Assembly (NCBI GenBank): GCA_902778855.1
Contig: CACYZM010000022.1
Location: 1-32,377, forward strand
From: an uncultured Bacteroidia bacterium
GTDB taxonomy: Bacteria > Bacteroidota > Bacteroidia > Bacteroidales > UBA932
Direction of reading: 5' to 3'
DNA: 32,377 bases
The position numbers were made by a program, and so were the translations under genes. The notes under the pieces are model-generated. The model was not told the DNA's origin. It was given only the letters and a program-made list of their open reading frames with translations, and searched no databases. Shown here piece by piece: positions 9,948 through 20,879 of the stretch (its first letter is position 1; each line of letters begins with the position of its first letter).

Positions 9948-11690
9948 CTAATCGGCCACAATCGACATCTCGCAATGCTTGCAATCGAACTGCAGGCGCA
10001 GACGGTTGCTCTGGTTGACGAGATAGAGCGGCTCAGACCCCCGGTCAAGCCGGGGGTGACGATTATCCGTCATGCCCGGCTTGGCCGGGCATCTTTTTGT
10101 GCAGAGCCCCAGCTCCCAGCGGATGCAGTAGCGGCTGCGGAGCAGGACGTTCGGGATGTCGAGGGTTGAGATGTTGTGGGCGGCGGCGCCGGGTTGGGGC
10201 GTGTGCGGCACGGAGTGCCGCGGACGCGACTCGGCCAGCCGCAGCAATTCGTCGGCCAACTCCCGGCGGAGACCATTGAGGAACGAGGCCGGATAAAACC
10301 GGACCGGCTCGGCTTCGACCGAAGCCACCGAGAAGGCATACGGCCCCGTATGCTTCCCGAGCTGCCGGCGAAGATTTTCGACCGCCGCCTCCGGCTTCTC
10401 AGCCACCGGCGCCTCATCGCGGAAACTGACCTTGGCCGTCAATTCATCCTCCGTCGTCGCCGTAACGGTCGTCATGCCCGGCTCGCTCTTCCAGTCAATC
10501 TTCACATCGATTACCCGCTTCGGCATATTCTTCTCCAGTTCCCGCTCGAAACGGATGTCGAAGTTGCGATAGATGCGCATCCCGGCTTCCAGCCCGGCCG
10601 TGTCGCGCAATTGGATCCGCTCGCCGGAAGCCACTTCCACGCGGCGGCCGGTCACCTCGCCGTTCCGGCCCACAAAGGATAGGCCGTCGCCGTTGGTAAG
10701 CGGTTTCCCGCCGGCAATCACGATCTCGTTGCCGCGCACCGCCTTGATCTGGCCGATGAATTCGCCGAGCGACTTGGCCGCATCTTCGCTGGCCATCTTC
10801 TCGCCGCGCCCGTCGAGGAACGCCTCGGTGTAGCCACGCTGGAACGTCCGGTCCGGATCGGGCGTAAATCCGCCCTCCAGCCGACCGGCCGAGGTCTTGG
10901 CGTAGTCATCCATCACCTGCCGGTAATACCGCACCACATTCTTGACATAGGAGGCATTCTTGAGCCGGCCTTCAATCTTGAACGAACAGATGCCCGCGGC
11001 CACCAGGTCAGGGAGTCGCTTGTCAAACCGCAGGTCGCGGGGCGAGAGAAGCGGGCGGTCGCGGACGATGACGCGGCCGGATGCGTCGACCAGGTCGTAG
11101 CGGGAGCGGCAGGCCTGGGCGCAGACGCCGCGGTTCGCGCTGCGACCCGCAAGTTGCTGGCTCAGGTAGCACTCCCCGCTGTAGCCCACGCACAGCGCGC
11201 CGTGGATGAAGAACTCCAGCTCGCAGCCGACGGCCGCGCGAATGGCGCGGATCTCTTCGAGTGACAGTTGTCGCTCCAGCACCAGGCGCGAAAAGCCCAG
11301 GGCTTCCAGTTCCCGCGCCCTTTCGGGCGTCCGGATGGCCGTCTGCGTGGAGGCGTGCAGCTCCACGGGCGGCAGCGGCATCTCGAGCAGGCTCAGATCC
11401 TGGACGATGAACGCGTCGACGCCGGCTTCATAGAGCTGCTGCATCAGTGCCAGCGCCTGCGGACGCTCCTCGTCCGTAAGCAGCGTGTTGACGGTGGCGT
11501 GGACTTTGGCGCCGTAGCGGTGGGCGTAGTGGCAAAGGCGGTCAATGTCTTCGACCGCATTGCCGGCCGCCGCGCGGGCGCCGAAGGCGGGCCCGGCGAT
11601 ATAAACGGCATCGGCACCGCAGTCGATCGCTGCGATGCCGATATCCGCATTTCTCGCCGGAGCGAGCAGTTCAAGCCGGGTTATTTGCAC
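9948..11690 (-). CDS. Peptidase U32 family protein with C-terminal palindromic-repeat insert
   Basis: A protein of about 580 residues. The U32 domain starts with LELLAPARNADIGIAAIDCGADAVYIAG and has the family signature ELEFFIHGALCVGYSGECYLS with GVCAQACRSRY. E. coli members of this family (RlhA, TrhP, UbiU/V) act in RNA hydroxylation or ubiquinone hydroxylation, so proteolysis should not be assumed. The C-terminal Cys-containing domain (YCIRWELGLC ... FDCKHCEM) is interrupted by about 20 residues (about 533-552, PGMTDNRHPRLDRGS) encoded by a double palindrome. I chose the GTG at 11690, which keeps the conserved LELLAPAR start and overlaps the TPR gene's stop by 10 bases. An ATG at 11729 would add 13 residues inside the TPR gene. 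Confidence 0.85.
   Translation of the reverse strand: MQITRLELLAPARNADIGIAAIDCGADAVYIAGPAFGARAAAGNAVEDIDRLCHYAHRYGAKVHATVNTLLTDEERPQALALMQQLYEAGVDAFIVQDLSLLEMPLPPVELHASTQTAIRTPERARELEALGFSRLVLERQLSLEEIRAIRAAVGCELEFFIHGALCVGYSGECYLSQQLAGRSANRGVCAQACRSRYDLVDASGRVIVRDRPLLSPRDLRFDKRLPDLVAAGICSFKIEGRLKNASYVKNVVRYYRQVMDDYAKTSAGRLEGGFTPDPDRTFQRGYTEAFLDGRGEKMASEDAAKSLGEFIGQIKAVRGNEIVIAGGKPLTNGDGLSFVGRNGEVTGRRVEVASGERIQLRDTAGLEAGMRIYRNFDIRFERELEKNMPKRVIDVKIDWKSEPGMTTVTATTEDELTAKVSFRDEAPVAEKPEAAVENLRRQLGKHTGPYAFSVASVEAEPVRFYPASFLNGLRRELADELLRLAESRPRHSVPHTPQPGAAAHNISTLDIPNVLLRSRYCIRWELGLCTKRCPAKPGMTDNRHPRLDRGSEPLYLVNQSNRLRLQFDCKHCEMSIVAD
10037..10092. repeat. Double palindromic repeat inserted in-frame in the U32 gene
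   Basis: Two GC-rich hairpins lie 14 bases apart: an 8-bp stem with a 5-base loop (10037-10044 with 10050-10057), and a 9-bp stem ATGCCCGGC with a 3-base loop (10072-10080 with 10084-10092). Read with the gene, they encode CPAKPGMTDNRHPRLDRGS, a peptide with no place in the conserved U32 C-terminus. It appears to be a mobile palindromic element tolerated because it is in frame. Confidence 0.65.
10072..10098 (+). terminator. Possible intrinsic terminator for the SGNH transcript
   Basis: On the plus strand the 9-bp stem ATGCCCGGC/GCCGGGCAT is followed by CTTTTT, a good rho-independent terminator shape. It lies about 125 bases past the SGNH stop, antisense inside the U32 gene. The two genes have no spacer of their own in which to terminate. 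Confidence 0.4.
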
Positions 11691-12619
11691 TTGTTCTGCT
11701 CGATCTGATAGCGGGCGCCTTCGCCCCACTTGGCATCCTGGGCAATCTTCTTGAAGTAGCCGCAGGCTTTGTCGGCTTCACCGGCACCCACGAGGGCCAT
11801 ACCCAGCTGATAGACGATACCGGGTTCCTTGGTGACAGCGTCCGGGGTCATCGAGAGATAGGCTTCGAAACCGTCGGCGGCCACTTTGTTCTGCTTGAGC
11901 GAGAGGGCGCTGACGCCGATGATCTTCTGGGCGTTGGCGTTGTCGACATACTGGGTCGACTTCTGGGCGTTTTCGAGGGCACCCTTCATATCCTTGGCTT
12001 TCTGGCAAGCCACAGCCTTCTTGACATAGGCGTTGGAGAGCTGCTTCGCGGCGGTTGCTTCTTCACCGTTCTCGGAAGCCAGTTCGAAAGCCTTGATGGC
12101 CTCGTCCGCCTTGTTGAGACGGGTCAGGGCCTGACCTTTGGCGAGGAAAGCCTTGCCGTTGGTCGGATCGGCGTCGATGACCTTCTGGAAAGCGTTCACG
12201 GCGCTTTCGAAATCACCGGCTTTCAGGAAACCGTTGCCTTCAGCCATCATGATCTGCGGGATCAGCTCTTTGGCTTCTTCCACCACCTCGGCTTCGCCGA
12301 AGGCTTCGCCTTTCTCGATGGCTTTCTTGAACTGTTCGACAGCGGCATTATAGTCTTTGGCGGTCACGAATTCCTTACCGACGGCCATATAAAGCTTGGG
12401 GATGATGCCTTTGCACTGGGTGGCGATTTCAGCCCCTTCCTCTCCGAGCTGGCCGGCCATGTCGAGCGCCTGCTCGAACATCGTGATGGCTTCAGCCTTG
12501 TTGTTCTCGATTGCAGCGGCGGCGTTGTTATAGAGCTCGGTTGCTTTTTCGAGATCCTGCGCAGCTGCGATGCCCATCGTACAGAGGGCGACCATGATCG
12601 TTAAGAGAATCTTTTTCAT
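11681..12619 (-). CDS. Secreted tetratricopeptide-repeat protein
   Basis: A 312-residue protein with a signal peptide MKKILLTIMVALCTMGIAAA cleaved before QDLEKA. The rest is alpha-helical, made of degenerate TPR units: KATELYNNAAAAIEN, AAVEQFKKAIEKGE, GDFESAVNAFQKVIDADPTNGKAFLAKGQAL, LNKADEAIKAFELA and further copies to about residue 300. TPR arrays bind protein partners; no enzymatic motif is present. It probably lies in the periplasm. It is transcribed from a strong promoter and is followed by the U32 gene with overlap, so the two are co-expressed. Function beyond scaffolding cannot be stated. Confidence 0.85.
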   Translation of the reverse strand: MKKILLTIMVALCTMGIAAAQDLEKATELYNNAAAAIENNKAEAITMFEQALDMAGQLGEEGAEIATQCKGIIPKLYMAVGKEFVTAKDYNAAVEQFKKAIEKGEAFGEAEVVEEAKELIPQIMMAEGNGFLKAGDFESAVNAFQKVIDADPTNGKAFLAKGQALTRLNKADEAIKAFELASENGEEATAAKQLSNAYVKKAVACQKAKDMKGALENAQKSTQYVDNANAQKIIGVSALSLKQNKVAADGFEAYLSMTPDAVTKEPGIVYQLGMALVGAGEADKACGYFKKIAQDAKWGEGARYQIEQNKCK

Positions 12620-12673
12620 CGTTTATTCGTTTTTGTTTTTGTTTCAATGGGTGTGTCTATGCATAAAGGCTGC

Positions 12674-12705
12674 CAAAATTATCAACTATTACTTAATTTT
12701 GCAAA
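12674..12705 (-). promoter_or_regulatory. Promoter of the TPR-U32 operon
   Basis: On the minus strand TTTG (12702-12705), a 20-base spacer and TAATTTTG (12674-12681) match the full Bacteroidota consensus. The predicted start is near 12668, giving a leader of about 48 bases. Confidence 0.7.
12694..12701 (+). promoter_or_regulatory. -7 element for the DUF3109 gene
   Basis: TAATTTTG matches TAnnTTTG 14 bases before the ATG at 12716; no -33 element is recognisable. As at 8828-8839, its TTTG abuts the divergent -33 element to form TTTGCAAA. Confidence 0.4.
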
Positions 12706-12715
12706 ACTTTTTGCG

Positions 12716-13309
12716 ATGAACATCCCTTCCATCATCCAAATCGGGGACATTCTGGTCTCTTCGGAAGTGCTCACGGAGTACTTCTGCTGCGACTATGAAA
12801 CCTGTCGCGGCGCCTGTTGCCTGATCGGCGACAGCGGCGCCCCGCTGCTCGAAAGCGAAACCGCGCTGCTCGAAAAGCACTATCCCCAATACGAAGCCTG
12901 GATGAGTGTGGAAGGCCGGGAGAAGATCGCCGAAACGGGCTTCTTCACGGTCGATGTCGACGGCGACCTGGTGACGCCCCTGCTTCGCGGCAGCGAAGAA
13001 TGCGCCTACACGCGTTTCGAAGGCGAAAGTTGTTTCTGCGCCATCGAGCGCGCCCACTGCGCCGGGCGCTGCCCCTGGGTCAAGCCCATCTCCTGCCGTC
13101 TCTACCCCATCCGCGCCAGCATCCTCCGCAACGGCCTGACCGCCCTCAACCTCCACCGCTGGGAAATCTGCCGCTGCGCCTTCGAAAAAGGCCGCAAAGA
13201 AGGGGTCCCCGTCTACAAATTCTTGCGGGAACCCCTGATCGATGCCTATGGCGCCTCCTTCTACGACGAACTCTGCGAAGTCGCCGCTGCCCTCGACCAA
13301 TCTCACTGA
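12716..13309 (+). CDS. DUF3109 family cysteine-rich protein
   Basis: A 197-residue cytoplasmic protein of unknown function, conserved in Bacteroidota. It carries a dense set of cysteines arranged like YkgJ-type metal or Fe-S cluster proteins: FCCDYETCRGACC near the N-terminus, then CAYTRFEGESCFCAIERAHC, GRCPWVKPISCRLYPI and ICRCAF. These residues probably bind zinc or an iron-sulfur cluster. The ATG at 12716 is preferred over one 23 codons upstream because MNIPSIIQIGDILVSSEV is the usual family start and the -7 element lies just before it. It is divergent from the TPR gene and convergent with the RAYT gene, with a REP element in between. Confidence 0.85.
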   Translation: MNIPSIIQIGDILVSSEVLTEYFCCDYETCRGACCLIGDSGAPLLESETALLEKHYPQYEAWMSVEGREKIAETGFFTVDVDGDLVTPLLRGSEECAYTRFEGESCFCAIERAHCAGRCPWVKPISCRLYPIRASILRNGLTALNLHRWEICRCAFEKGRKEGVPVYKFLREPLIDAYGASFYDELCEVAAALDQSH

Positions 13310-13313
13310 CCCT

Positions 13314-13419
13314 GACTGCCGGTTTCGGCTTTCCCGGGCACGGATCGAGGCAAAACCGTGCCCCGACTGCCTTTTTTCAGCGGTCGGGGCACGGATAAGT
13401 CGGTTTTTGTGCCCGGGAC
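13314..13419. repeat. REP-like palindromic repeat, copy A (downstream of RAYT)
   Basis: A GC-rich element built from repeated GTGCCCCGACTGCC-type arms in alternating orientation. Hairpins: GTGCCCCGAC (13358-13367) with GTCGGGGCAC (13383-13392); GGGCACGG (13336-13343) with CCGTGCCC (13356-13363); outer CCCGGGCAC (13333-13341) with GTGCCCGGG (13409-13417). Bases 13357-13419 are identical, as reverse complement, to 19654-19716. It lies between convergent DUF3109 and RAYT genes and could also terminate both. Confidence 0.85.
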
Positions 13420-13427
13420 TGGGCATC

Positions 13428-14411
13428 TCATTTCTTACGAGTCGGGAATATAGCATCGACAGCCGACGGCGTCATTTTCAGCAGACGGGCGATTTGGCCA
13501 TTGTCCGCATTGTAATCGAAATGCAGTTTTCGAGCTAGATCGACTTTGTCAGTGTACGGCAATAATGTCACGCGTTGACCTTCATAACTGTCTTTGCATA
13601 TCTTGTAGAGAACGGCGTTCAATTCGTCATCAGTATAGAAGACCTTCTCGCAGAGCGCCTCGGCGATTTCTTTGTAGCCTTCGATTTCACGTGAAATCTT
13701 GAAGAAATAGTGGCGGGCATCCCGGAAGATGCTCTCTCCGAAAGCGATCGCACAACAACTGGCTGGAGAAAAATACCCGTCGATAATCGCATAGGTTTCG
13801 GGATAATCGATATGGTGCGAATGCAGCAGCTTTCGTTTTTCTCGGGCAGTCAGGTCACCGAATCTTCTGTCCACCCTGTTTTTGTTGACGGAAAGAAAGT
13901 AGCAGTTCCCGGCACTGAATGGATATGTATACGGGGTATGCGACGGATTGACAACGTATTGGTTCCGATTGGTGTAGCCGATTTGGTTGCGAAGTGACTC
14001 AAGCGAGAGGATCGGGACGGTTTTCCCTTCAAATCGAGACAGATTGATCGCCATATGACGGCTTTCAAGATACTTCTTTAGTCGCCGTTTAAATAATTCG
14101 AAGAACGCCAGGACATCGTCACGTTCGCCACATATTACAAAATGAACGTGGTTGCTCATCAACTCAAATGTAATGATCCTGATTTTCGGGCAATCGTGCG
14201 CGCACATCGCGACAACAGTCATCGCAAACGCATACACCTCCGGATCGCGAAAAATGACAGGATGATCCTCCGGCGTATGCAGGTGATAAAAGGGACCAAA
14301 ATAACGAAGCGCTTGCTCAAAAAGGCGTTTGCACCGACTTTCCTTATCCAAAAACGAATGTCCCACGGGGATCGCCGCCAGATGAGCGGCATCGAAAATA
14401 TCCGTAACCAT
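13428..14411 (-). CDS. REP-associated tyrosine transposase (RAYT, Y1/HUH family)
   Basis: A 327-residue single-strand DNA endonuclease of the IS200/Y1 superfamily. The HUH motif is in ELMSNHVHFVI (H88, H90), followed by the basic helix AFFELFKRRLKKYLESR. The candidate catalytic tyrosine is Y146 in QIGYTNRN, where relatives have YIHRNP, with the YPFSA (relatives YPWSS) segment after it. The C-terminus (ARKLHFDYNADNGQIARLLKMTPSAVDAIFP) looks like a helix-turn-helix. RAYTs act on REP sequences, cutting and joining single strands. Here REP-like arrays flank the gene on both sides in the same orientation. The composition is clearly lower in GC than its neighbours, suggesting acquisition. The ATG at 14411 is chosen; a GTG at 14441 would add ten residues. 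The frame is intact. Confidence 0.85.
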   Translation of the reverse strand: MVTDIFDAAHLAAIPVGHSFLDKESRCKRLFEQALRYFGPFYHLHTPEDHPVIFRDPEVYAFAMTVVAMCAHDCPKIRIITFELMSNHVHFVICGERDDVLAFFELFKRRLKKYLESRHMAINLSRFEGKTVPILSLESLRNQIGYTNRNQYVVNPSHTPYTYPFSAGNCYFLSVNKNRVDRRFGDLTAREKRKLLHSHHIDYPETYAIIDGYFSPASCCAIAFGESIFRDARHYFFKISREIEGYKEIAEALCEKVFYTDDELNAVLYKICKDSYEGQRVTLLPYTDKVDLARKLHFDYNADNGQIARLLKMTPSAVDAIFPTRKK

Positions 14412-14516
14412 AATCCTACACTCTTTCTTCTCCAACGCCACTATGGCTCTGGATGTACCCGCAAGTTACAACCGAAACCTCCCGAATCCAAGAAAAAGAT
14501 AAAAAAAGTGTCAGAC

Positions 14517-14700
14517 GGGCACGGTTTCCCGCAAAAGCGTGCCCCGACTGCCAGTTTTCGACTTCTCGGGCACAGATCCGGGCCAAACCGTGCCCCGACT
14601 ACCGATTCCCACCTTCCGGGGCACGGATCGAGACAAAACCGTGCCCCAACTGCCGGATGAGGGCGGTCGGGGCAGGAATCAGTCGGTTTTCGTGCCCGGG
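14517..14700. repeat. REP-like palindromic repeat array, copy B (upstream of RAYT)
   Basis: About four successive arms of the same family as copy A. Inverted pairs include GGGCACG (14517-14523) with CGTGCCC (14538-14544), GGGGCACGG (14618-14626) with CCGTGCCCC (14639-14647), and a last diverged unit to GTGCCCGGG at 14692-14700. It has the same orientation as copy A relative to RAYT, so A and B are direct repeats around the gene. B is longer and more diverged. It ends 9 bases before the DUF2007 stop codon. Confidence 0.8.
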
Positions 14701-14708
14701 ATGCGGCG

Positions 14709-14978
14709 TTAGTCGGCCGGGGCGCCGGTTTCGGTTTCGGCTTCAGCCTCGGCGGCGGCCTCGGCGTCGGTGGCGGCGCGGTCGAGGATCATTTGGGCGG
14801 ATTCGAGGTCGTAGGCGTTGACCTGGAGCTGGATGCCGTGACGGCCCATCTGGACGCCGGGGTAGGAACTGTTGAGGTTCATGACGACGGCTTCGATGCC
14901 TTCGCTTTCGAGCAGCCCTTTGGCAATCTGGGCTTCGTATTCGTTGTAGTACTCAGCTACGGTTTTGAGCGTTCCCAT
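14709..14978 (-). CDS. DUF2007-type small protein
   Basis: An 89-residue protein matching the DUF2007 (putative signal-transducing) pattern: an opening TVAEYYNEYEAQIAKGLLESEGIEAVVMN and a closing GIQLQVNAYDLESAQMILD. Function is unknown in the family; the fold is small alpha/beta and PII- or ACT-like. The last 20 residues are an Ala/Glu/Thr-rich acidic tail (AAAEAEAETETGAPAD) outside the conserved core. It lies 26 bases after the two-helix membrane protein gene and probably shares its transcript. A REP array begins 8 bases beyond its stop. Confidence 0.8.
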   Translation of the reverse strand: MGTLKTVAEYYNEYEAQIAKGLLESEGIEAVVMNLNSSYPGVQMGRHGIQLQVNAYDLESAQMILDRAATDAEAAAEAEAETETGAPAD

Positions 14979-15004
14979 AACGGTTTCCTCCTATTGTTAA
15001 ACGA

Positions 15005-15487
15005 TTAGTCTTCGTTCTCGCTATTTTCGTGCCGGACGCGATAGTTGATGGCGCTCAGGATGCGGAGCAGGTCTTTGCGGTAGCCTTCCACCTTGACGGG
15101 GTTGTCGGCGGTCTCGAAGGTGACGCGGTCTTCGTACATCCGGGTAAGGCGGGCATAGGCGCTTTTCTTGATATAGGTGACCTTGCCGGGTTCCTGCGTT
15201 TCGACGACATAGTCGAAACCCTTCATCACTTCGTCGACCATCGTGGCATATTTTGTGAAGTCTCCGTCGAGGTACAGCTCTTTCTTGTAGAAGCTCAGCT
15301 TCGGATAAAGGGCGGCCACCACCACGAAAAACAGGGCGATCTTCGGGAGCGACCCTTCCTTGAAGAGGTCGACGAACGAGAGGCCCGCCATTTTCTGGGC
15401 GGAGAACAGATAGACGATGCCGACGATCAGGAAGAAGATGACGGCGAAATACACCAGGTATTTCAGGGAGCGGATCAGGTATCGCAT
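15005..15487 (-). CDS. Conserved membrane protein of unknown function
   Basis: A 160-residue protein with two hydrophobic segments near the N-terminus (about residues 9-29, YLVYFAVIFFLIVGIVYLFSA, reading from Y11; and about 49-61, KIALFFVVVAALYP). They are followed by a soluble, charged domain of about 95 residues (YLDGDFTKYATMVDEVMKGF ... VTFETADNPVKVEGYRKDLLRIL). The soluble part probably faces the cytoplasm. I do not recognise a named family. The conserved tone of the sequence and pairing with the DUF2007 gene suggest a real two-gene operon. It diverges from a coiled-coil membrane protein gene across 67 bases. Confidence 0.75.
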   Translation of the reverse strand: MRYLIRSLKYLVYFAVIFFLIVGIVYLFSAQKMAGLSFVDLFKEGSLPKIALFFVVVAALYPKLSFYKKELYLDGDFTKYATMVDEVMKGFDYVVETQEPGKVTYIKKSAYARLTRMYEDRVTFETADNPVKVEGYRKDLLRILSAINYRVRHENSENED

Positions 15488-15495
15488 GGTTACGG

Positions 15496-15527
15496 ATTGT
15501 TAATCTTTACAAAATTAACTATTTTTG
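15496..15527 (+). promoter_or_regulatory. Promoter of the coiled-coil protein-hemW operon
   Basis: ATTG (15496-15499), a 20-base spacer and TATTTTTG (15520-15527) match the Bacteroidota consensus with one mismatch. The ATG at 15555 follows after 27 bases. Confidence 0.6.
15510..15517 (-). promoter_or_regulatory. -7 element for the 15487-14709 operon
   Basis: On the minus strand TAATTTTG matches TAnnTTTG, 22 bases before the ATG at 15487. A TTTG exists upstream at 15533-15536, but the 15-base spacing is too short, so only the -7 box is supported. Confidence 0.35.
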
Positions 15528-15554
15528 CAGAACAAACCTTAAAAAAGTATAGCG

Positions 15555-16487
15555 ATGGAAGAACTTGATGAAGAGATGATCCAGTTTGAAAAGGATCACC
15601 CGAGCAAGAAAAGCGGAGCCAGCGGCAATGGCGGTTCGATGCGGACCGTGGCCATCGCCCTCGGCGTCGCCGCCGCTGCGTTGCTGGTCGCCCTGCTGGT
15701 GATGATGGGCAAGAAGAACGCACTGGTGAAAGACCTGAACATCGACAAGCAGAACCTGACCAACGAACTGGTCGCCCTCCAGGCCGACTACGAATCCCTG
15801 ACCACGACCAACGCGGCCATCAACGACTCCCTCAACGTGGAGAAGGAAAAGGTTGGCCAGCTGATCGAGCGGCTCCAGAAGACCGAAGCCACCAACCGCG
15901 CCAAAATCCGTCAGTACGAGCAGGAACTCGGCACGCTGCGTTCCATCATGAAGGGATACATCCGTCAGATCGACTCGCTCAATACGCTCAACATCTCGCT
16001 GCGCAACGAGGCCACAGAGGCCCGTCGCGAAGCGCAGGAGAGCAAGCGCCAGTATGAAGACCTGCGCACCACCACCGACCAGCTCTCGAAGAAGGCCTCG
16101 GCCGGCGCCGTGGTCAAGGGCCGTGGCTTCAACCTGGTGGCCATCAACGAGTCGAACAAGGTGACCGACCGCAGCAGCCGCTCCCGCAAGCTCCGCGCCT
16201 GCCTGAGCCTGATCGAGAACTCGATCGCCGAACGCGGCTGGCGCACGGTGTACATCCGGGTCAAGGGTCCGGACGATGTCCTGCTGACCGACGACAGCGG
16301 CAAGGTGTTCACCAGCGGCGGCGAACAGATGATCTACTCGGCCTCCCGCGAAGTGGATTACCAGGGCGAAGAAGTGGAGATCTGCATCTACTTCAATGCC
16401 TCCCAGGGATTCGAGAAGGGTAAATACACCGTAGACTTCTACACCGACGAAACTCGTCTGGGCACGGCCGAAATGATCTTGAAGTAG
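15555..16487 (+). CDS. Single-pass membrane protein with periplasmic coiled coil, unknown function
   Basis: A 310-residue protein. A short acidic cytoplasmic start (MEELDEEMIQFEKDHPSKK) is followed by one transmembrane helix (about residues 30-51, VAIALGVAAAALLVALLVMM). A long coiled coil then runs from about 55 to 175 (DLNIDKQNLTNELVALQADY ... RREAQESKRQYEDL). The C-terminal 120-residue globular domain has KGRGFNLVAINESNKVTDRS and RGWRTVYIRVKGPDDVLL, predicted mostly beta. I do not know a named family for it. The architecture suits a periplasmic spacer or cell-envelope tether. It is co-transcribed with hemW (4-base gap), which does not obviously explain its role. Confidence 0.8.
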   Translation: MEELDEEMIQFEKDHPSKKSGASGNGGSMRTVAIALGVAAAALLVALLVMMGKKNALVKDLNIDKQNLTNELVALQADYESLTTTNAAINDSLNVEKEKVGQLIERLQKTEATNRAKIRQYEQELGTLRSIMKGYIRQIDSLNTLNISLRNEATEARREAQESKRQYEDLRTTTDQLSKKASAGAVVKGRGFNLVAINESNKVTDRSSRSRKLRACLSLIENSIAERGWRTVYIRVKGPDDVLLTDDSGKVFTSGGEQMIYSASREVDYQGEEVEICIYFNASQGFEKGKYTVDFYTDETRLGTAEMILK

Positions 16488-16491
16488 GCCG

Positions 16492-17565
16492 ATGGCGGGC
16501 GTCTACGTCCATTTCCCGTTCTGCGCCGCGAAGTGCATCTACTGCGACTTCTATGCGCGGGTCCGCCGGGACTGGACGCCCTACGTGGAAGCCCTGATCG
16601 GCGAACTCGCTGAGAGGAAAGAATTTTTGCAAGGCGTTCCCCCGACTACGCTTTATTTCGGCGGGGGGACGCCTTCGCTTTTGCCCCCCGAGCTGCTCAA
16701 GCGTGTGGCGGATGCCGTACGCACTACCTTCGGAGTCGAGGAATTCGAAGAATTCACCATCGAGGTCAATCCCGACGATGTGACGCCTGAACGGGCGGCG
16801 GCGTGGCGGGCGGTGGGAGCCACCCGCATCAGTATGGGCGTGCAGTCGTTCGACGACGCCCATCTGCGCTGGATGCGGCGGCGGCACACGGCGGCGCAGG
16901 CCGCCGCGGCCTTCGCCACGCTCCGCGCCGCCGGCTTCGACAACCTGTCGCTCGACCTGATCTTCGGCTTCACGGGCCTGACCGACGAAACTTGGGCGGC
17001 CAGCATCGCGGCCGCCATTGCCTTGCGGCCGGAACATATCTCCTGCTATCAGATGACAGGGCGCTACGCCGCTCCCGACGAAGAAAGCTGCCGCCGCCAG
17101 TACCGGATGCTCCAGGACCGGCTGCGCATCGCCGGCTACGGCCAGTACGAAATCTCCAATTACGCCCTTCCCGGCCGGGAATCGCGGCATAACAGCGCCT
17201 ACTGGGCCCGCGAACCTTATCTTGGGCTGGGCGCCGGCGCGCATTCGTTCGACGGCGACCGCCTTCGGCAGTGGAACACGCCCGATATCGACACTTACGT
17301 CGCCTCCCGCCAGGGCGGCGAAGAATGGCTGTCCGATCAGGAAGTCCTGGAGGAAAAACTGATGCTCGCGCTGCGGACCGTCCGCGGCCTCGACCTGTCG
17401 ACCCTCACGGACGACGAATTGTGCCGCTTAAATAAAACGACCCTGGAGGAACTCTCCAGGGCCGGTAAATTGATTCTTGAAAAAGCCGTGATCCGGATAC
17501 CGGAAGAAGAACTCTTCGTATCCGACTGGATCGTTAGCCGGCTATTCCCGGAATATAGGGCGTGA
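16492..17565 (+). CDS. hemW: Radical SAM heme chaperone HemW
   Basis: A 357-residue radical SAM protein. The cluster motif CxxxCxxC is C11, C15, C18 in FPFCAAKCIYCDFY, with the conserved HemW-type F-Y tail; that cysteine pattern separates HemW from the oxygen-independent coproporphyrinogen oxidase HemN. Further family motifs are LYFGGGTPSLLPPELL, EFTIEVNPDDVTPE, SMGVQSFDD and the C-terminal HemN_C region (LMLALRTVRGLDLSTL). HemW inserts heme into respiratory enzymes in studied bacteria. It lies 4 bases after the coiled-coil gene. Its 3' end overlaps the convergent cytochrome b gene by 32 bases. Confidence 0.93.
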   Translation: MAGVYVHFPFCAAKCIYCDFYARVRRDWTPYVEALIGELAERKEFLQGVPPTTLYFGGGTPSLLPPELLKRVADAVRTTFGVEEFEEFTIEVNPDDVTPERAAAWRAVGATRISMGVQSFDDAHLRWMRRRHTAAQAAAAFATLRAAGFDNLSLDLIFGFTGLTDETWAASIAAAIALRPEHISCYQMTGRYAAPDEESCRRQYRMLQDRLRIAGYGQYEISNYALPGRESRHNSAYWAREPYLGLGAGAHSFDGDRLRQWNTPDIDTYVASRQGGEEWLSDQEVLEEKLMLALRTVRGLDLSTLTDDELCRLNKTTLEELSRAGKLILEKAVIRIPEEELFVSDWIVSRLFPEYRA

Positions 17566-18235
17566 GGCCGCAGAAGCCGTTCGCCTTGCAGAAGGCGAAG
17601 ATGGCCACCACCGCGAAGCCGAGCATCAGCAGGGTCACATAGACGCCCGTGATCCACTTCCAGCGTTTCAGCCAGATGTTGTTGTTCCAGCCGAGGGTCT
17701 GGAGTGCGCTCCAGAAGCCGTGGGTGAGGTGGAACCAGAGAGCGACGAACCAGACGAGGTAGAGGCAGACCATCCACCAGTTGCCGAAGACCTGGCCCAT
17801 CAGCTGATACGGGTCGGCCTCTTCGGCGCCCAGCCAGTTCTGCAGCTGCATCTTGGCCCAGAACTGTCCCAGGTGCAGGAAGATGAAGCAGAGGACGATG
17901 AGACCCAGCACGAACATGTTGCGGGAAGACCAGGAGTCCGTCTTGGCCTTGTTGGGGATCTCATAGCGCTGCTCGCCGCGGGCCTTGCGGTTGCCGATGG
18001 TCAGGATGAAAGCGTAGGCGATGTGGACGATGAAGAAGGCCGCCAGGACGGGAACAACCACGTTGACCCAGCCCATGGAGAGAATCTCGCAGATCGTACC
18101 GTAGACCACGCTGTCGGGATCGAAGACATAGGTCAGGTTCATCACCATATGGAAGGTGAGGAAGAGGATGAGGCAGAGTCCGCTGACACTCATGATCAGC
18201 TTCTTGCCGATGGAAGACTTGAATATGTTTGCCAT
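17534..18235 (-). CDS. sdhC: Succinate dehydrogenase/fumarate reductase cytochrome b subunit (Bacteroidota type)
   Basis: A 233-residue inner-membrane protein with five predicted helices that anchors the SdhAB/FrdAB catalytic dimer, binds heme b and reacts with menaquinone. Family features are the start MANIFKSSIGKKLIMSVSGL, the early helix with H29 (LTFHMVMNLTY), FIVHIAYAF, FLHLGQFW and FHLTHGFWSALQTLG, whose histidines include likely heme ligands. Bacteroidales normally carry this gene directly ahead of the flavoprotein and iron-sulfur subunit genes. Here the next gene downstream is convergent hemW, overlapping by 32 bases, so the catalytic subunits must be elsewhere. Confidence 0.92.
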   Translation of the reverse strand: MANIFKSSIGKKLIMSVSGLCLILFLTFHMVMNLTYVFDPDSVVYGTICEILSMGWVNVVVPVLAAFFIVHIAYAFILTIGNRKARGEQRYEIPNKAKTDSWSSRNMFVLGLIVLCFIFLHLGQFWAKMQLQNWLGAEEADPYQLMGQVFGNWWMVCLYLVWFVALWFHLTHGFWSALQTLGWNNNIWLKRWKWITGVYVTLLMLGFAVVAIFAFCKANGFCGLTPYIPGIAG

Positions 18236-18267
18236 AATGTCCGTTAATTGTTTTCGGTTTAATTATG

Positions 18268-18298
18268 CAAAGATAATCCGAAACTTGATAAAATCATA
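18268..18298 (-). promoter_or_regulatory. Promoter of the cytochrome b gene
   Basis: On the minus strand TATG (18295-18298), a 19-base spacer and TATCTTTG (18268-18275) match the consensus with one mismatch in the -33 box. The ATG at 18235 follows 32 bases later. Confidence 0.5.
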
Positions 18299-18315
18299 AT
18301 AAATGGTTACTTTTG
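18284..18315 (+). promoter_or_regulatory. Promoter of pyrH-frr, with almost no leader
   Basis: CTTG (18284-18287), a 20-base spacer and TACTTTTG (18308-18315) match the consensus with one mismatch. The pyrH ATG begins at 18320, only four bases after the -7 element, so the transcript should start at or within a few bases of the initiation codon. Confidence 0.6.
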
Positions 18316-18319
18316 TTTC

Positions 18320-19030
18320 ATGAAATACAAACGAATCCTCCTTAAATTGAGCGGCGAGGCAATCGGCGGCCCGGATGGCGTCGGCCTCAACGAGAACGTG
18401 ATGGCGGCCTATGCGCGCCAGATCGCAGCCGTCGTGAACGCCGGCACCCAGGTGGCGATCGTCATCGGCGGCGGCAACATCTTCCGCGGCCTGAGCGGCA
18501 CCCAGCGCGGCTTCGACCGCGTCCGCGGCGACCAGATGGGTATGCTGGCCACCGTCATCAACAGCATCGGCCTCTCCCTCTCCCTGCGCAATGCGGGCCT
18601 CACGGCCGAAGTGTTCACCTCCACGCCCATGCGGCCCATGGCCAAATACTATATGCGAGACGAAGTCGACGAGTACCTCAAATCCGGCGGCGTAGCCGTC
18701 GTGGCCGGGGGTACGGGCAATCCTTTCTTCACCACCGACTCCGCCGCCGCCCTCCGCGCGTGCGAATTGCGCTGCGACGCTTTGCTGAAAGGCACGAAAG
18801 TTGACGGCGTGTACGACGCCGATCCGGTGAAGCACCCCGAGGCCAAGCGCTACGATACCCTGACCTTCGACAAGGCCATTGCCGACAACCTCAAAGTCAT
18901 GGACCAGACCGCCTTCACCCTGTGCAAGGAAAACGACATGCCGATCATCGTCTTCAATATGAACGACGACGGCATGCTCGAAAAAGTGATCGCCGGAACG
19001 GGCACCTGCACGGTGCTGAGCAACGAGTAA
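18320..19030 (+). CDS. pyrH: UMP kinase
   Basis: A 236-residue amino-acid-kinase-fold enzyme that phosphorylates UMP to UDP with ATP in pyrimidine nucleotide synthesis. Motifs are KRILLKLSGEAIGG (phosphate-binding start), AIVIGGGNIFRG, RVRGDQMGMLATVINSIGLS, and PFFTTDSAAALRACEL in the UMP site. The length equals that of Bacteroides homologues, which supports the ATG at 18320 despite its closeness to the promoter. It is followed by frr after 22 bases, a common pairing. It diverges from the cytochrome b gene. Confidence 0.96.
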   Translation: MKYKRILLKLSGEAIGGPDGVGLNENVMAAYARQIAAVVNAGTQVAIVIGGGNIFRGLSGTQRGFDRVRGDQMGMLATVINSIGLSLSLRNAGLTAEVFTSTPMRPMAKYYMRDEVDEYLKSGGVAVVAGGTGNPFFTTDSAAALRACELRCDALLKGTKVDGVYDADPVKHPEAKRYDTLTFDKAIADNLKVMDQTAFTLCKENDMPIIVFNMNDDGMLEKVIAGTGTCTVLSNE

Positions 19031-19052
19031 CAAGAAACAAAAGTTAACCGCT

Positions 19053-19616
19053 ATGATTGAGAAAGCACAAGCCGTGATGGACGCCGCCAAGGAAAAGATG
19101 CAAAGCGCCGTCACCTATCTGGAAGAAGACCTGAAGACCTACCGTGCCGGCAAGGCCAACCCGGCCGTGTTCAACAACGTGATGGTCAACTACTATGGGA
19201 CGATGACCCCGGTTCCCCAGGTGGCCAGCATCGGCACGCCCGACGCCAAGACGATGCTCATCCAGCCTTGGGACCGCTCTCTCCTTCACACCATCGAAAA
19301 GGCCATTATGGACGCCAACCTGGGCTTCACCCCGCAGAACAACGGCGAGATGATCCGCATCAACGTGCCCGCCCTTACCGAAGAGCGCCGCAAGGAACTC
19401 GTGAAGAAGGCCCGCACCGCCGGTGAAAACGCCAAAGTCGGCGTACGCAACGCCCGCCGCGACGCGATCGAAACCCTCAAGAAGTTCCAAAAAGAAGGCC
19501 TTCCCGAAGACGCCGAAAAGGATTTCGAAACCGAGGTCCAGAAACTCACCGACAACTTCTCCAAGAAAGTCGAGGAAATCCTCGCCGCCAAGGAGAAAGA
19601 TATGATGACGGTGTAG
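19053..19616 (+). CDS. frr: Ribosome recycling factor
   Basis: A 187-residue translation factor that, with EF-G, splits the post-termination ribosome. It has the two-domain RRF pattern: helix one with YLEEDLKTYRAGKANPAVF, the beta domain YYGTMTPVPQVASIGTPDAKTM (read in two parts) with LIQPWDRS, and the long helices PALTEERRKELVKKARTAGE and VRNARRDAIETLKKF. The length is typical. It follows pyrH after 22 bases and is probably co-transcribed. A REP-like element lies between its stop and holB. Confidence 0.96.
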   Translation: MIEKAQAVMDAAKEKMQSAVTYLEEDLKTYRAGKANPAVFNNVMVNYYGTMTPVPQVASIGTPDAKTMLIQPWDRSLLHTIEKAIMDANLGFTPQNNGEMIRINVPALTEERRKELVKKARTAGENAKVGVRNARRDAIETLKKFQKEGLPEDAEKDFETEVQKLTDNFSKKVEEILAAKEKDMMTV

Positions 19617-19653
19617 GCCCCCGGCTAGCCACACATGCCCGACCCCGACTGGG

Positions 19654-19786
19654 GTCCCGGGCACAAAAACCGACTTATCCGTGCCCCGACCGCTGAAAAA
19701 AGGCAGTCGGGGCACGATTATGCCCGGATCCGTGCCCGGGAGGCCGAAAACCGGCAGTCGGGGCACGGTTTTGTCCGGATTCGGGG
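19654..19786. repeat. REP-like palindromic repeat, copy C (inverted relative to RAYT flanks)
   Basis: Bases 19654-19716 are identical to the reverse complement of copy A (13357-13419), and the similarity continues to about 19759 (CCGTGCCCGGG, GGCAGTC). The element has the hairpin GTGCCCCGAC (19681-19690) with GTCGGGGCAC (19706-19715), then another arm pair, and a further partial unit to about 19786. It lies within the 216 bases between frr and holB, which otherwise hold only the holB promoter element. It may serve as the pyrH-frr terminator. Confidence 0.85.
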
Positions 19787-19817
19787 CGGGGGGATGACGG
19801 AGATGGAAAAAAATCGT

Positions 19818-19825
19818 TAACTTTG
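19818..19825 (+). promoter_or_regulatory. -7 element for the holB operon
   Basis: TAACTTTG matches TAnnTTTG, seven bases before the holB ATG at 19833. No -33 element is clear. As for pyrH, the transcript would have almost no leader. Confidence 0.45.
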
Positions 19826-19832
19826 TACGAAT

Positions 19833-20879
19833 ATGCGCTTTGCGGAAATTATCGGTAATGAGGCCCTGAAGGACGCGCTGGTGCGGATGGCACGCAGCGG
19901 ACGGCTGGGACATGCGCTGCTCCTGACGGAGGAGAACGGCGGGGGTGCGTTCGCCCTGGCGCTGGCGCTCGCGCAGTTTGTCAACTGCCGCGAGCCGCAG
20001 GAGAACGACTCGTGCGGCGTGTGCGGATCGTGCCATAAGTATGGGAAACTCATCCACCCCGACCTGCACTTCGTCTTCCCGGTGAGCGCCAGTACGGCGC
20101 TGTCGGAAAGCGAGAAGAAAGGTCCGATTTCCGACTATTTCCTGCCGGCTTTCCGGGAACTGGCCCTGGCCAATCCCTATTTCACGGAGCAGCAGCTCTA
20201 CGACGCCATCGGCATCGAGAACAAAAGCGGCCTGATCAGCGTGAACGAGGCGAAGCGGATCGCCGAGAAACTGCTGCTGCGCGCCGCTGAAGGGACCTGG
20301 AAGACGATGATCATCTACCTCCCCGAGAAGATGAACGCCGAAGCGGCCAACAAGCTGCTCAAACTCCTCGAAGAGCCGCCGCAAGGCACGCTGTTCCTGC
20401 TGATCTCCCACAACCCGGAGCGCCTGCTGCCGACCATCCGTTCCCGCTGCCAGCCGATCGCCGTGCAGCCGCTTTCGCGCGCGGAACGGCAGCGCGCCGG
20501 CGCCGGCGAGAACGACAACGCCGAATTCCGCGAGATCGCCATCTCGCTGCTGGAAGCCGGCCTGGCCAAACGCCTCATCGACCTGTTTCCCCAGTGGGAG
20601 ATGCTCGCCGACCTGGGGCGCGAGAAACAACGGGAGTGGTGCCTCTATATGGAGCGCTACCTCCGGAAGATCCTCCTCGTGTCGCAGGGCCTCGCCGACC
20701 TGGCCGACCCGGCGCCGGAGGAGGAAGCCACCCTCCGCGGCTTCGCCGCCAAGATCCGGCCGACCTTCTACGAAAAGGCCTTCGCGGCGCTGGAAGAAGC
20801 CATCGCCTCGATCGGCAGCAACGTCAACCCCAAACTGGTCTTCTGCGACCTGAGCAACCGCCTGTTATTGGCACTATAA
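19833..20879 (+). CDS. holB: DNA polymerase III subunit delta prime
   Basis: A 348-residue clamp-loader subunit. The AAA+ fold begins MRFAEIIGNEALKDALVRMA. The nucleotide-binding loop is degenerate (LLTEENGGGAFALALALAQF instead of GxxGxGKT), consistent with delta prime being a non-hydrolysing stator. The zinc module has C52, C61, C64 and C67 (DSCGVCGSCHKY). KLLKLLEEPPQGTLFLLIS and the SRC motif in TIRSRCQ are diagnostic. The C-terminal collar domain is the least conserved part. It starts an operon with ricT (4-base gap), the lipoprotein and trmB. Confidence 0.9.
   Translation: MRFAEIIGNEALKDALVRMARSGRLGHALLLTEENGGGAFALALALAQFVNCREPQENDSCGVCGSCHKYGKLIHPDLHFVFPVSASTALSESEKKGPISDYFLPAFRELALANPYFTEQQLYDAIGIENKSGLISVNEAKRIAEKLLLRAAEGTWKTMIIYLPEKMNAEAANKLLKLLEEPPQGTLFLLISHNPERLLPTIRSRCQPIAVQPLSRAERQRAGAGENDNAEFREIAISLLEAGLAKRLIDLFPQWEMLADLGREKQREWCLYMERYLRKILLVSQGLADLADPAPEEEATLRGFAAKIRPTFYEKAFAALEEAIASIGSNVNPKLVFCDLSNRLLLAL

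Follow-up and report, generated by a model that had tools for sequence, protein, structure and literature searches.

A 32,377-nucleotide stretch of DNA from an uncultured member of the Bacteroidales (hereafter the window), constituting contig C22 of a 2.41-Mb genome that is 98% complete (the own genome, G000), carries a gene for a Y1/HUH enzyme with a palindromic array on either side, and the question it raises is whether gene and arrays together form a repetitive extragenic palindrome (REP) family with its own REP-associated tyrosine transposase (RAYT). Comparison of the window with its relatives indicates that the locus is probably such a REP/RAYT system, of a REPtron-like kind, an assignment that draws on the demonstrable pairing of gene and repeats in the compared sequences, their fixed geometry, the co-divergence of repeat arms and enzyme, the presence or absence of the whole module at one site, and inversions with repeats at their break points. 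The loci compared numbered 80, made up of the window and, out of 211 relatives, the 79 best distinct ones, which are neither mutually independent nor independent of the genomes (G numbers) searched below; the 79 relatives are titled Bacteroidales, Bacteroidia, Bacteroidaceae, Rikenellaceae or one of two Candidatus genera, and many are of rumen or gut origin.

The RAYT-like gene (13428..14411, minus strand) has an ATG start at 14411 and a stop codon ending at 13428, and encodes 327 amino acids (aa) that include H88, H90 and Y146, with the motif IxYxNRN. The array 3' of the gene, to its left in the window (13310..13425, minus strand), contains one complete 79-nucleotide (nt) unit at 13336-13414, while that 5' of the gene (14511..14705, minus strand) lies in the same orientation and contains overlapping 79-nt units beginning at 14517, 14568 and 14619, i.e. 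in tandem steps of 51 nt; the long match between the two arrays amounts to 81% over 109 nt. A third array of the same family (19640..19790, plus strand; units at 19659-19737 and 19710-19788) lies in the opposite orientation behind the ribosome recycling factor gene (frr), between it and the gene for DNA polymerase III delta'. Folding as single-stranded DNA (ssDNA) indicated that the arms are common to two competing hairpins, one of 28 nt (-9.0 kcal/mol) and one of 35 nt with a longer stem (-12.7 kcal/mol), and gave -21.5 to -23.5 kcal/mol (z about -4) for three 79-nt units of the window. In pair counts restricted to 79-nt units and to loci with proteins no more than 85% identical, the only support for the 35-nt hairpin that was independent of unit selection came from pairs 29-51 and 30-50 (29/34 each; expected 60% and 74%, respectively), the other counts leaning towards the arms, by whose score the units had been picked. 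A search of positions 12600-20000 against Rfam at E ≤ 0.1 gave no match, and the idea of a known RNA family was rejected. An earlier note, made from the letters of this stretch alone, had described an intact Y1/HUH gene with H88, H90 and a candidate Y146, palindromic arrays on both sides in one orientation, and alternative hairpins; these observations were all confirmed, the residue positions being exact and both hairpin forms folding as ssDNA.

Alignment of 79 proteins (that of L123, at 437 aa, was left out) established that H88, H90, Y146, N148, R149 and N150 are invariant in all 79, the window protein included, as is the presence of the motif Y-x-N-R-N; Y146 is, from its place in the sequence, presumably the catalytic tyrosine. 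The window protein has a long C-terminal half with, as judged by eye, a helix-turn-helix-like tail. None of the 80 genes contains an internal stop when read from the chosen ATG. In-frame stops had been flagged in eight homologues among the matches listed, four of which (L066, L078, L079 and L082) belong to the 80 loci; their reading frames are open from the chosen ATG, so that the flagged stop sits before the start. Ratios of non-synonymous to synonymous substitution (dN/dS) were 0.07-0.13 in the four of ten compared pairs with dS below 1, and the gene is, on these comparisons, under purifying selection.

The guanine plus cytosine (GC) content of the gene (47.8%) is lower than that of the arrays (63-66%) and of the window (56.7%), as had been noted earlier; the acquisition read from it was rejected because all 80 of the compared genes are lower in GC than the loci around them and because G034, G092 and G218 have homologues at this very site. 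The suggestion of a REP/RAYT module in Bacteroidales thus held good insofar as a RAYT-like gene is accompanied by its own REP-like family, but not as a record of acquisition.

Curated models place the protein outside the recognised RAYT clades, an outcome that the earlier note had set down as counting against the module: the window protein matched Pfam Y1_Tnp at E 0.068 and NCBIfam REP_Tyr_transpos at E 0.025, both under the cut-off; at E ≤ 0.01 the two models matched 5/62 and 4/62 aligned homologues, respectively; and the NF047646 cut-off was exceeded in none of 59 family genomes and in 1 of 14 control genomes. A profile search of solved structures gave as its nearest chains 2xm3, 2xma and 2xo6 (E 0.04-0.05), which are labelled TRANSPOSASE and which we take to be ISDra2-type. 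NF047646 matches within the same bacterial family reach E 1e-18, all of them below the model cut-off, and 17 of 20 such loci were examined (L223, L226 and L229 being left out), of which five yielded no gene and 12 a readable one. The window-clade profile matched 11 of these 12 intermediate proteins, six at E 1e-37 to 1e-50, with alignment over nearly the whole profile shown for three, and the canonical motif YxxxNP was present in 8/12. Because NF047646-type proteins match the clade profile, the window protein is, by sequence relationship, a member of a divergent RAYT clade that is joined to the RAYTs through intermediates. The asparagine at Y+4 in the window clade is as in TnpAREP class 2, so far as the available part of the source describes it (PMC6006769).

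In its strict form the repeat is a 79-nt doublet composed of a 6-nt arm, 16 nt, arm, 23 nt, arm, 16 nt and arm, that is, two 6-16-6 hairpins and a 23-nt spacer, and its period of 51 nt equals one 28-nt hairpin plus one spacer. Strict doublets were found in 38/80 loci, whereas of 120 control pieces taken some 4 kb away 3 contained one. Repeat offsets equal to 51, 102 or 153 nt, give or take 1 nt, occurred in 44/80 loci and in none after one base-shuffle per flank, while 29/80 exhibited no offset of any size from 15 to 220 nt. A two-dimensional scan of arm spacing against period peaked at a span of 28 and a period of 51 (30/80 loci; grid median 0). When 400 kb of the own genome were scanned for the geometry irrespective of sequence, two strict-geometry doublets came up besides the window, both of the ATCCTC type, with a mean of 0.04 per cell at periods other than 51. 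In all 38 units, neither hairpin was preceded at 0-2 nt by the tetranucleotide GT[AG]G, whichever strand was read.

Under this constant geometry the arms themselves vary widely (GGGCAC, TGGCAC, CGACAC, GGGAGC, GGCCAC, ATCCTC, GTCCAT, GTCCCG, GGCCCG, AGGGGC and AAGCAC among others), both sides of arm pairs changing together between types. A Mantel test on the 36 loci that remained once those with proteins more than 90% identical had been left out related arm difference to RAYT identity (r = -0.395; 0/5000 permutations), mismatch falling as identity rises: mean arm mismatch was 0.09 in 29 pairs at 70-90% protein identity, 0.38-0.43 at 50-70%, and 0.63 in 61 pairs at 45-50%. Enzyme and repeats therefore seem, as far as such alignments can tell, to evolve together under a fixed measure.

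Bracketing of the gene was compared in 78 loci, L076 and L121 being left out because a flank was shorter than 150 nt. The two flanks shared a repeat in the same orientation, scoring 40 bits or more, in 45/78, as against 0.7% of cross-locus control pairs; when both orientations were scored, 40 were direct, 5 inverted, 3 ambiguous and 30 without a repeat. In 12 of the 45 the upstream copy stopped 97-103 nt short of the chosen start, and in 26 the downstream copy began no more than 30 nt from the stop. The NF047646-type intermediates were directly bracketed at 40 bits or more in 8/12 (L220 scored slightly higher in inverted orientation), and their periods, where seen, were 52, 53, 72, 74/75 and 83/84/168, with 26, 40, 42 and 215 in one locus. 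A paralogue in the own genome on contig C37 (L182; 32% identical to the window protein) and the loci L188 and L189 (33%) exhibited repeats at 102, 153 or 204 nt. Since the intermediates show other periods, the 51-nt step seems, in these alignments, to be characteristic of the window clade and its close relatives.

The fate of the module at a single site was followed with the neighbouring DUF3109 gene (12647..13309, plus strand), which served as the fixed point for telling occupied, solo and empty sites apart, was found in 39/40 genus genomes and permitted comparison of the loci in 30; the neighbour on the other side of the RAYT is a DUF2007 gene (14709..14978, minus strand). Behind DUF3109, RAYT and repeats were present in 4/30 (own, G034, G092 and G218), one solo doublet in G052 and in G194, half a repeat in G202, and neither a RAYT nor a marked GGGCAC doublet in 23/30. 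G218 carried, at this orthologous site, a RAYT 65% identical to that of the window with GGGAGC-like instead of GGGCAC arrays (cf. L086). The flanks of G092 and G194 are identical at 1571/1579 and 1572/1581 positions plus one gap (about 99.4%), and relative to G092 the G194 genome lacks the RAYT plus one repeat, exactly 1165 bp, while one 82-nt copy is kept. Compared with the window, L057 and L086, G092 (L058) has the segment from DUF2007 to frr inverted, and repeats lie at its two ends (C40:64486 and 69485); a second RAYT, which G194 possesses and G092 does not, adjoins a 5.36-kb inverted segment with repeat copies at both ends. Beside the latter, 2.3 kb of G194 contig C1 (L201:625-2950) is unaligned in G092. 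These deletions and inversions could be due to the enzyme or to homologous recombination, which the sequences do not tell apart.

Copies elsewhere were sought in 199 family genomes, with up to three mismatches for GGGCAC and the reversed pattern as control, the counts covering doublets and not single hairpins outside them. The GGGCAC doublet occurred in 8/199 genomes (own 11 places, G034 10, G052 10, G092 8, G194 5, G011 11, G031 29 and G166 4), whereas the control gave one place in each of two genomes. The ATCCTC type was found in 8/199 (1-7 places per positive genome) and the GTCCAT type in 6/199 (1-43 places, with 43 in G103), their controls being zero; copy numbers per genome above 100 were thus not reached by any of these arm types. 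Six of the own 11 GGGCAC places are in the three arrays of the window and five on four other contigs, so that a confinement to three places, which the earlier note had also counted against the module, proved false. Probing with the 14-mer core proposed there gave eight places at no more than one mismatch as against four for the reversed control, all four exact ones in the window, and the core alone was rejected as a probe. A further finding that the note would have held against the module, similar numbers of repeats in relatives without the RAYT, applies to G052 (10) and partly to G194 (5), in both of which the solo doublet at the former site is likely to be a scar.

A RAYT adjoins GGGCAC repeats in G000, G034, G092 and G031, ATCCTC repeats in G052, G162 and G083, and GTCCAT repeats in G103 and G034. 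The own genome contains at least three repeat types: GGGCAC with the window RAYT, GTGAGC in an array beside the C37 RAYT, and ATCCTC at six places (C2:92, C2:4531, three on C6, and C15:25116). No RAYT was seen for the last in the C2 stretch, nor a close homologue among the matches listed, and these doublets are possibly relics of a lost system. A 27+24 variant of GTGAGC type forms long 51-nt arrays on own contig C4 (32711-32990 and 35965-36450; L245), which are in opposite orientation about 3 kb apart with two genes between them, and this arrangement makes an invertible segment possible. In G103, contig C12 (L034/L130) contains very long GTCCAT arrays with a direct flank-to-flank match over 400 nt, and the 43 doublet places of this genome constitute the highest count among the three arm types searched. 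The GGGCAC doublets of G166 (C28, C31, C34 and C51) are in another genus, and this genome is outside the 90 with a RAYT match at E ≤ 1e-5. Several dispersed copies are directly behind stop codons, on open reading frames (ORFs) called by length only, and some resemble terminators.

Catalysis, binding, cleavage, strand transfer and mobility can be attributed to the enzyme by inference, and a mechanism for the REP/RAYT system may be proposed along the following lines. The Y1/HUH enzyme would most likely bind its cognate arms folded as ssDNA hairpins, for example on the lagging strand, would cut with Y146 and would then rejoin the ends; cutting and rejoining at REP hairpins is reported for TnpAREP in the available part of PMC6006769. 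Such events could extend an array by 51 nt at a time and now and then place a 79-nt doublet behind another gene. Since each 51-nt step holds one 28-nt and one 35-nt hairpin, strand transfer from one hairpin to the matching place in its neighbour would make the array longer or shorter by exactly one unit; and since the arms co-diverge with the enzyme while the spacing stays fixed, either the enzyme or the DNA fold is suggested as what sets the measure. The direct orientation of the copies around the gene would allow exact gain or loss of the gene plus one repeat, with a solo copy left behind, and inverted copies could flip the DNA between them. A more far-reaching version, in which a RAYT clade with a built-in 51-nt ruler is itself mobile, so that enzyme and one doublet excise and integrate exactly between same-strand repeats, leave solo scars and flip neighbours, and arm specificity is changeable at constant geometry, is distinctly doubtful; if true, it would represent a swappable single-strand DNA recognition system.

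Several observations weigh against the REP/RAYT reading as set out above. Loop positions pair at about chance level; 30/78 loci are without a bracketing repeat at 40 bits and in 5/78 it is inverted; and plain recombination between 82-nt repeats can give solo sites. The trend of arms with protein is not monotonic, mean mismatch being 0.42-0.58 below 45% protein identity, and identical arms occur in 20 pairs at 35-45%, so that the same arms must have been reached more than once or kept. A RAYT stands beside its arm type in about 9 of 22 combinations of genome and arm type, with a solo in two; in the other 11, among them G011 and G166 for GGGCAC and the own genome with its six ATCCTC places, neither was seen, and the gene seems to be missing from some of them. 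The search for the insertion of a dispersed copy did not succeed: one site was old and one a complex indel.

Of the rival explanations, that which regards the RAYT and one repeat as an IS200/IS605-like mobile module, excised by the enzyme as a single-stranded circle by way of same-strand hairpins at its two ends and reinserted at a resident repeat, is unlikely, albeit the likeliest of them. In its favour are the same-orientation bracketing in 40/78 loci, the exact 1165-bp difference between G092 and G194, the second RAYT of G194, and the loci L059 and L060, whose proteins are 70-71% identical and which show none of eight neighbour genes of the window site, so that sister modules sit at other sites. 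However, loss by homologous recombination between direct repeats leaves the same footprint, and the site is common to G000, G034, G092 and G218, which makes absence more simply a loss. The multiple near-identical copies per genome expected of an IS200/IS605 insertion sequence were likewise not seen, either among own paralogues (the closest being that on C37) or in 23 homologue pairs within one assembly, of which the closest was 72% identical, the assemblies being incomplete metagenome-assembled genomes. Searches of plasmid (E ≤ 1e-5) and phage (E ≤ 1e-3) collections and of PHROGs gave no match, and a plasmid- or phage-borne origin was rejected.

That the repeats are instead bidirectional terminators, maintained by selection and spread by gene conversion, with the Y1 gene incidental, is improbable. 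The position of several copies directly after stop codons, and a TTTTT run that follows the inner stem in some (C32 and C44), would fit such a role, but the repeat type changes with the RAYT, the strict doublets are concentrated beside RAYTs as against the control pieces, and, with the mismatch limits applied, each type went undetected in over 95% of the 199 genomes. Growth of the arrays by replication slippage or unequal recombination alone, the RAYT merely using them as a safe site, is more improbable still: tandem 51-nt arrays are slippage-prone, and the deletions and inversions fit homologous recombination, but both the recurrence of exactly 51 nt in sequence-unrelated arrays and the co-divergence of arm and protein are left unexplained. 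The clade offers dozens of enzyme/repeat pairs from nature that share one geometry but differ in their arms, several of them in one genome, along with an occupied/solo pair from two almost identical genomes, and this brings specificity, the way array units arise and what becomes of the gene within reach of direct tests.

Two further features of the window were recorded. A conserved 21-nt leader hairpin, CCAGAGCCATAGTGGCGTTGG (14432..14452, minus strand), is located between the promoter region and the start codon, and hairpins of this CCAKAGCCRYGGTGGCGTTGG type were present in the window and 20 other RAYT leaders, near-invariant although the accompanying repeats differ, with a TAnnTTTG-like box upstream in most of them; seven pairs are formed, with two-sided change at only one, and autoregulation of the RAYT is possible. 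The tail of the ORF at 9948-11729 (about 9950-10200, minus strand) contains KPGMTDNRHPRLDRGS, a stretch with the look of a dispersed repeat at a gene 3' end, comparable with those of other genomes.

Comparison with known systems indicates several partial likenesses. Elements of the IS200/IS605 group carry same-strand hairpins at both ends, and the window protein resembles their TnpA as a member of the Y1/HUH class by weak sequence match (E 0.04-0.05); unlike TnpA, it has N, not Q, at Y+4 and no near-identical copies were seen, and unlike IS200/IS605 the window RAYT is under purifying selection at a site common to relatives. The 79-nt unit is, like a REPIN, a palindrome doublet; the REPIN of Bertels and Rainey (2011) reportedly forms one long hairpin, whereas window-clade arms, of 6-8 nt, are common to two competing hairpins and the doublets extend in 51-nt steps. 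The gammaproteobacterial RAYT/REP systems and bacterial interspersed mosaic elements (BIMEs), in what is available of PMC2817692, similarly have the gene between palindromes, a repeat that co-evolves with the RAYT, and copies elsewhere, but the REPs flanking the RAYT are there inverted (Nunvar et al. 2010), while those of the window clade are mostly direct, lack the GT[AG]G head (0/38) and occupy 1-43 places per positive genome. The system differs from the enterobacterial BIMEs to which the earlier note compared it in three respects: the few copies (11 places), the units without GT[AG]G (38/38) and the mostly direct repeats. PMC8266576 states that evidence for mobility of tnpAREP is lacking, and in the accessible text of PMC3733652 Bacteroidetes are named once, for CGTC repeats.

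No description of 51-nt arrays around RAYTs was found in a literature search for which most subscription papers and supplements were outside the scope, the nearest system being TnpAREP subclass 2.6, which corresponds to Bertels group 5 (Bacteroidetes) in the available part of Quentin et al. 2018 (PMC6006769). That subclass is likewise from Bacteroidetes, of Y1/HUH type, and associated with atypical flanking structures that lack GT[AG]G and have copies elsewhere in the genome; it differs, as far as the same portion of that source goes, in a median length of 179 aa, in the motifs YIH[QN]NP and WQ, and in having no period or tandem arrangement described. The window clade, by contrast, comprises proteins of about 300-360 aa with Y-x-N-R-N, no invariant or nearly invariant Trp, a long C-terminal half, a fixed 51-nt geometry and mostly direct bracketing. 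Judged on these comparisons, what appears to be new here is direct bracketing, arms that track the protein, a fixed 51-nt geometry, a restricted repeat type of the system's own, and an exact occupied/solo pair.
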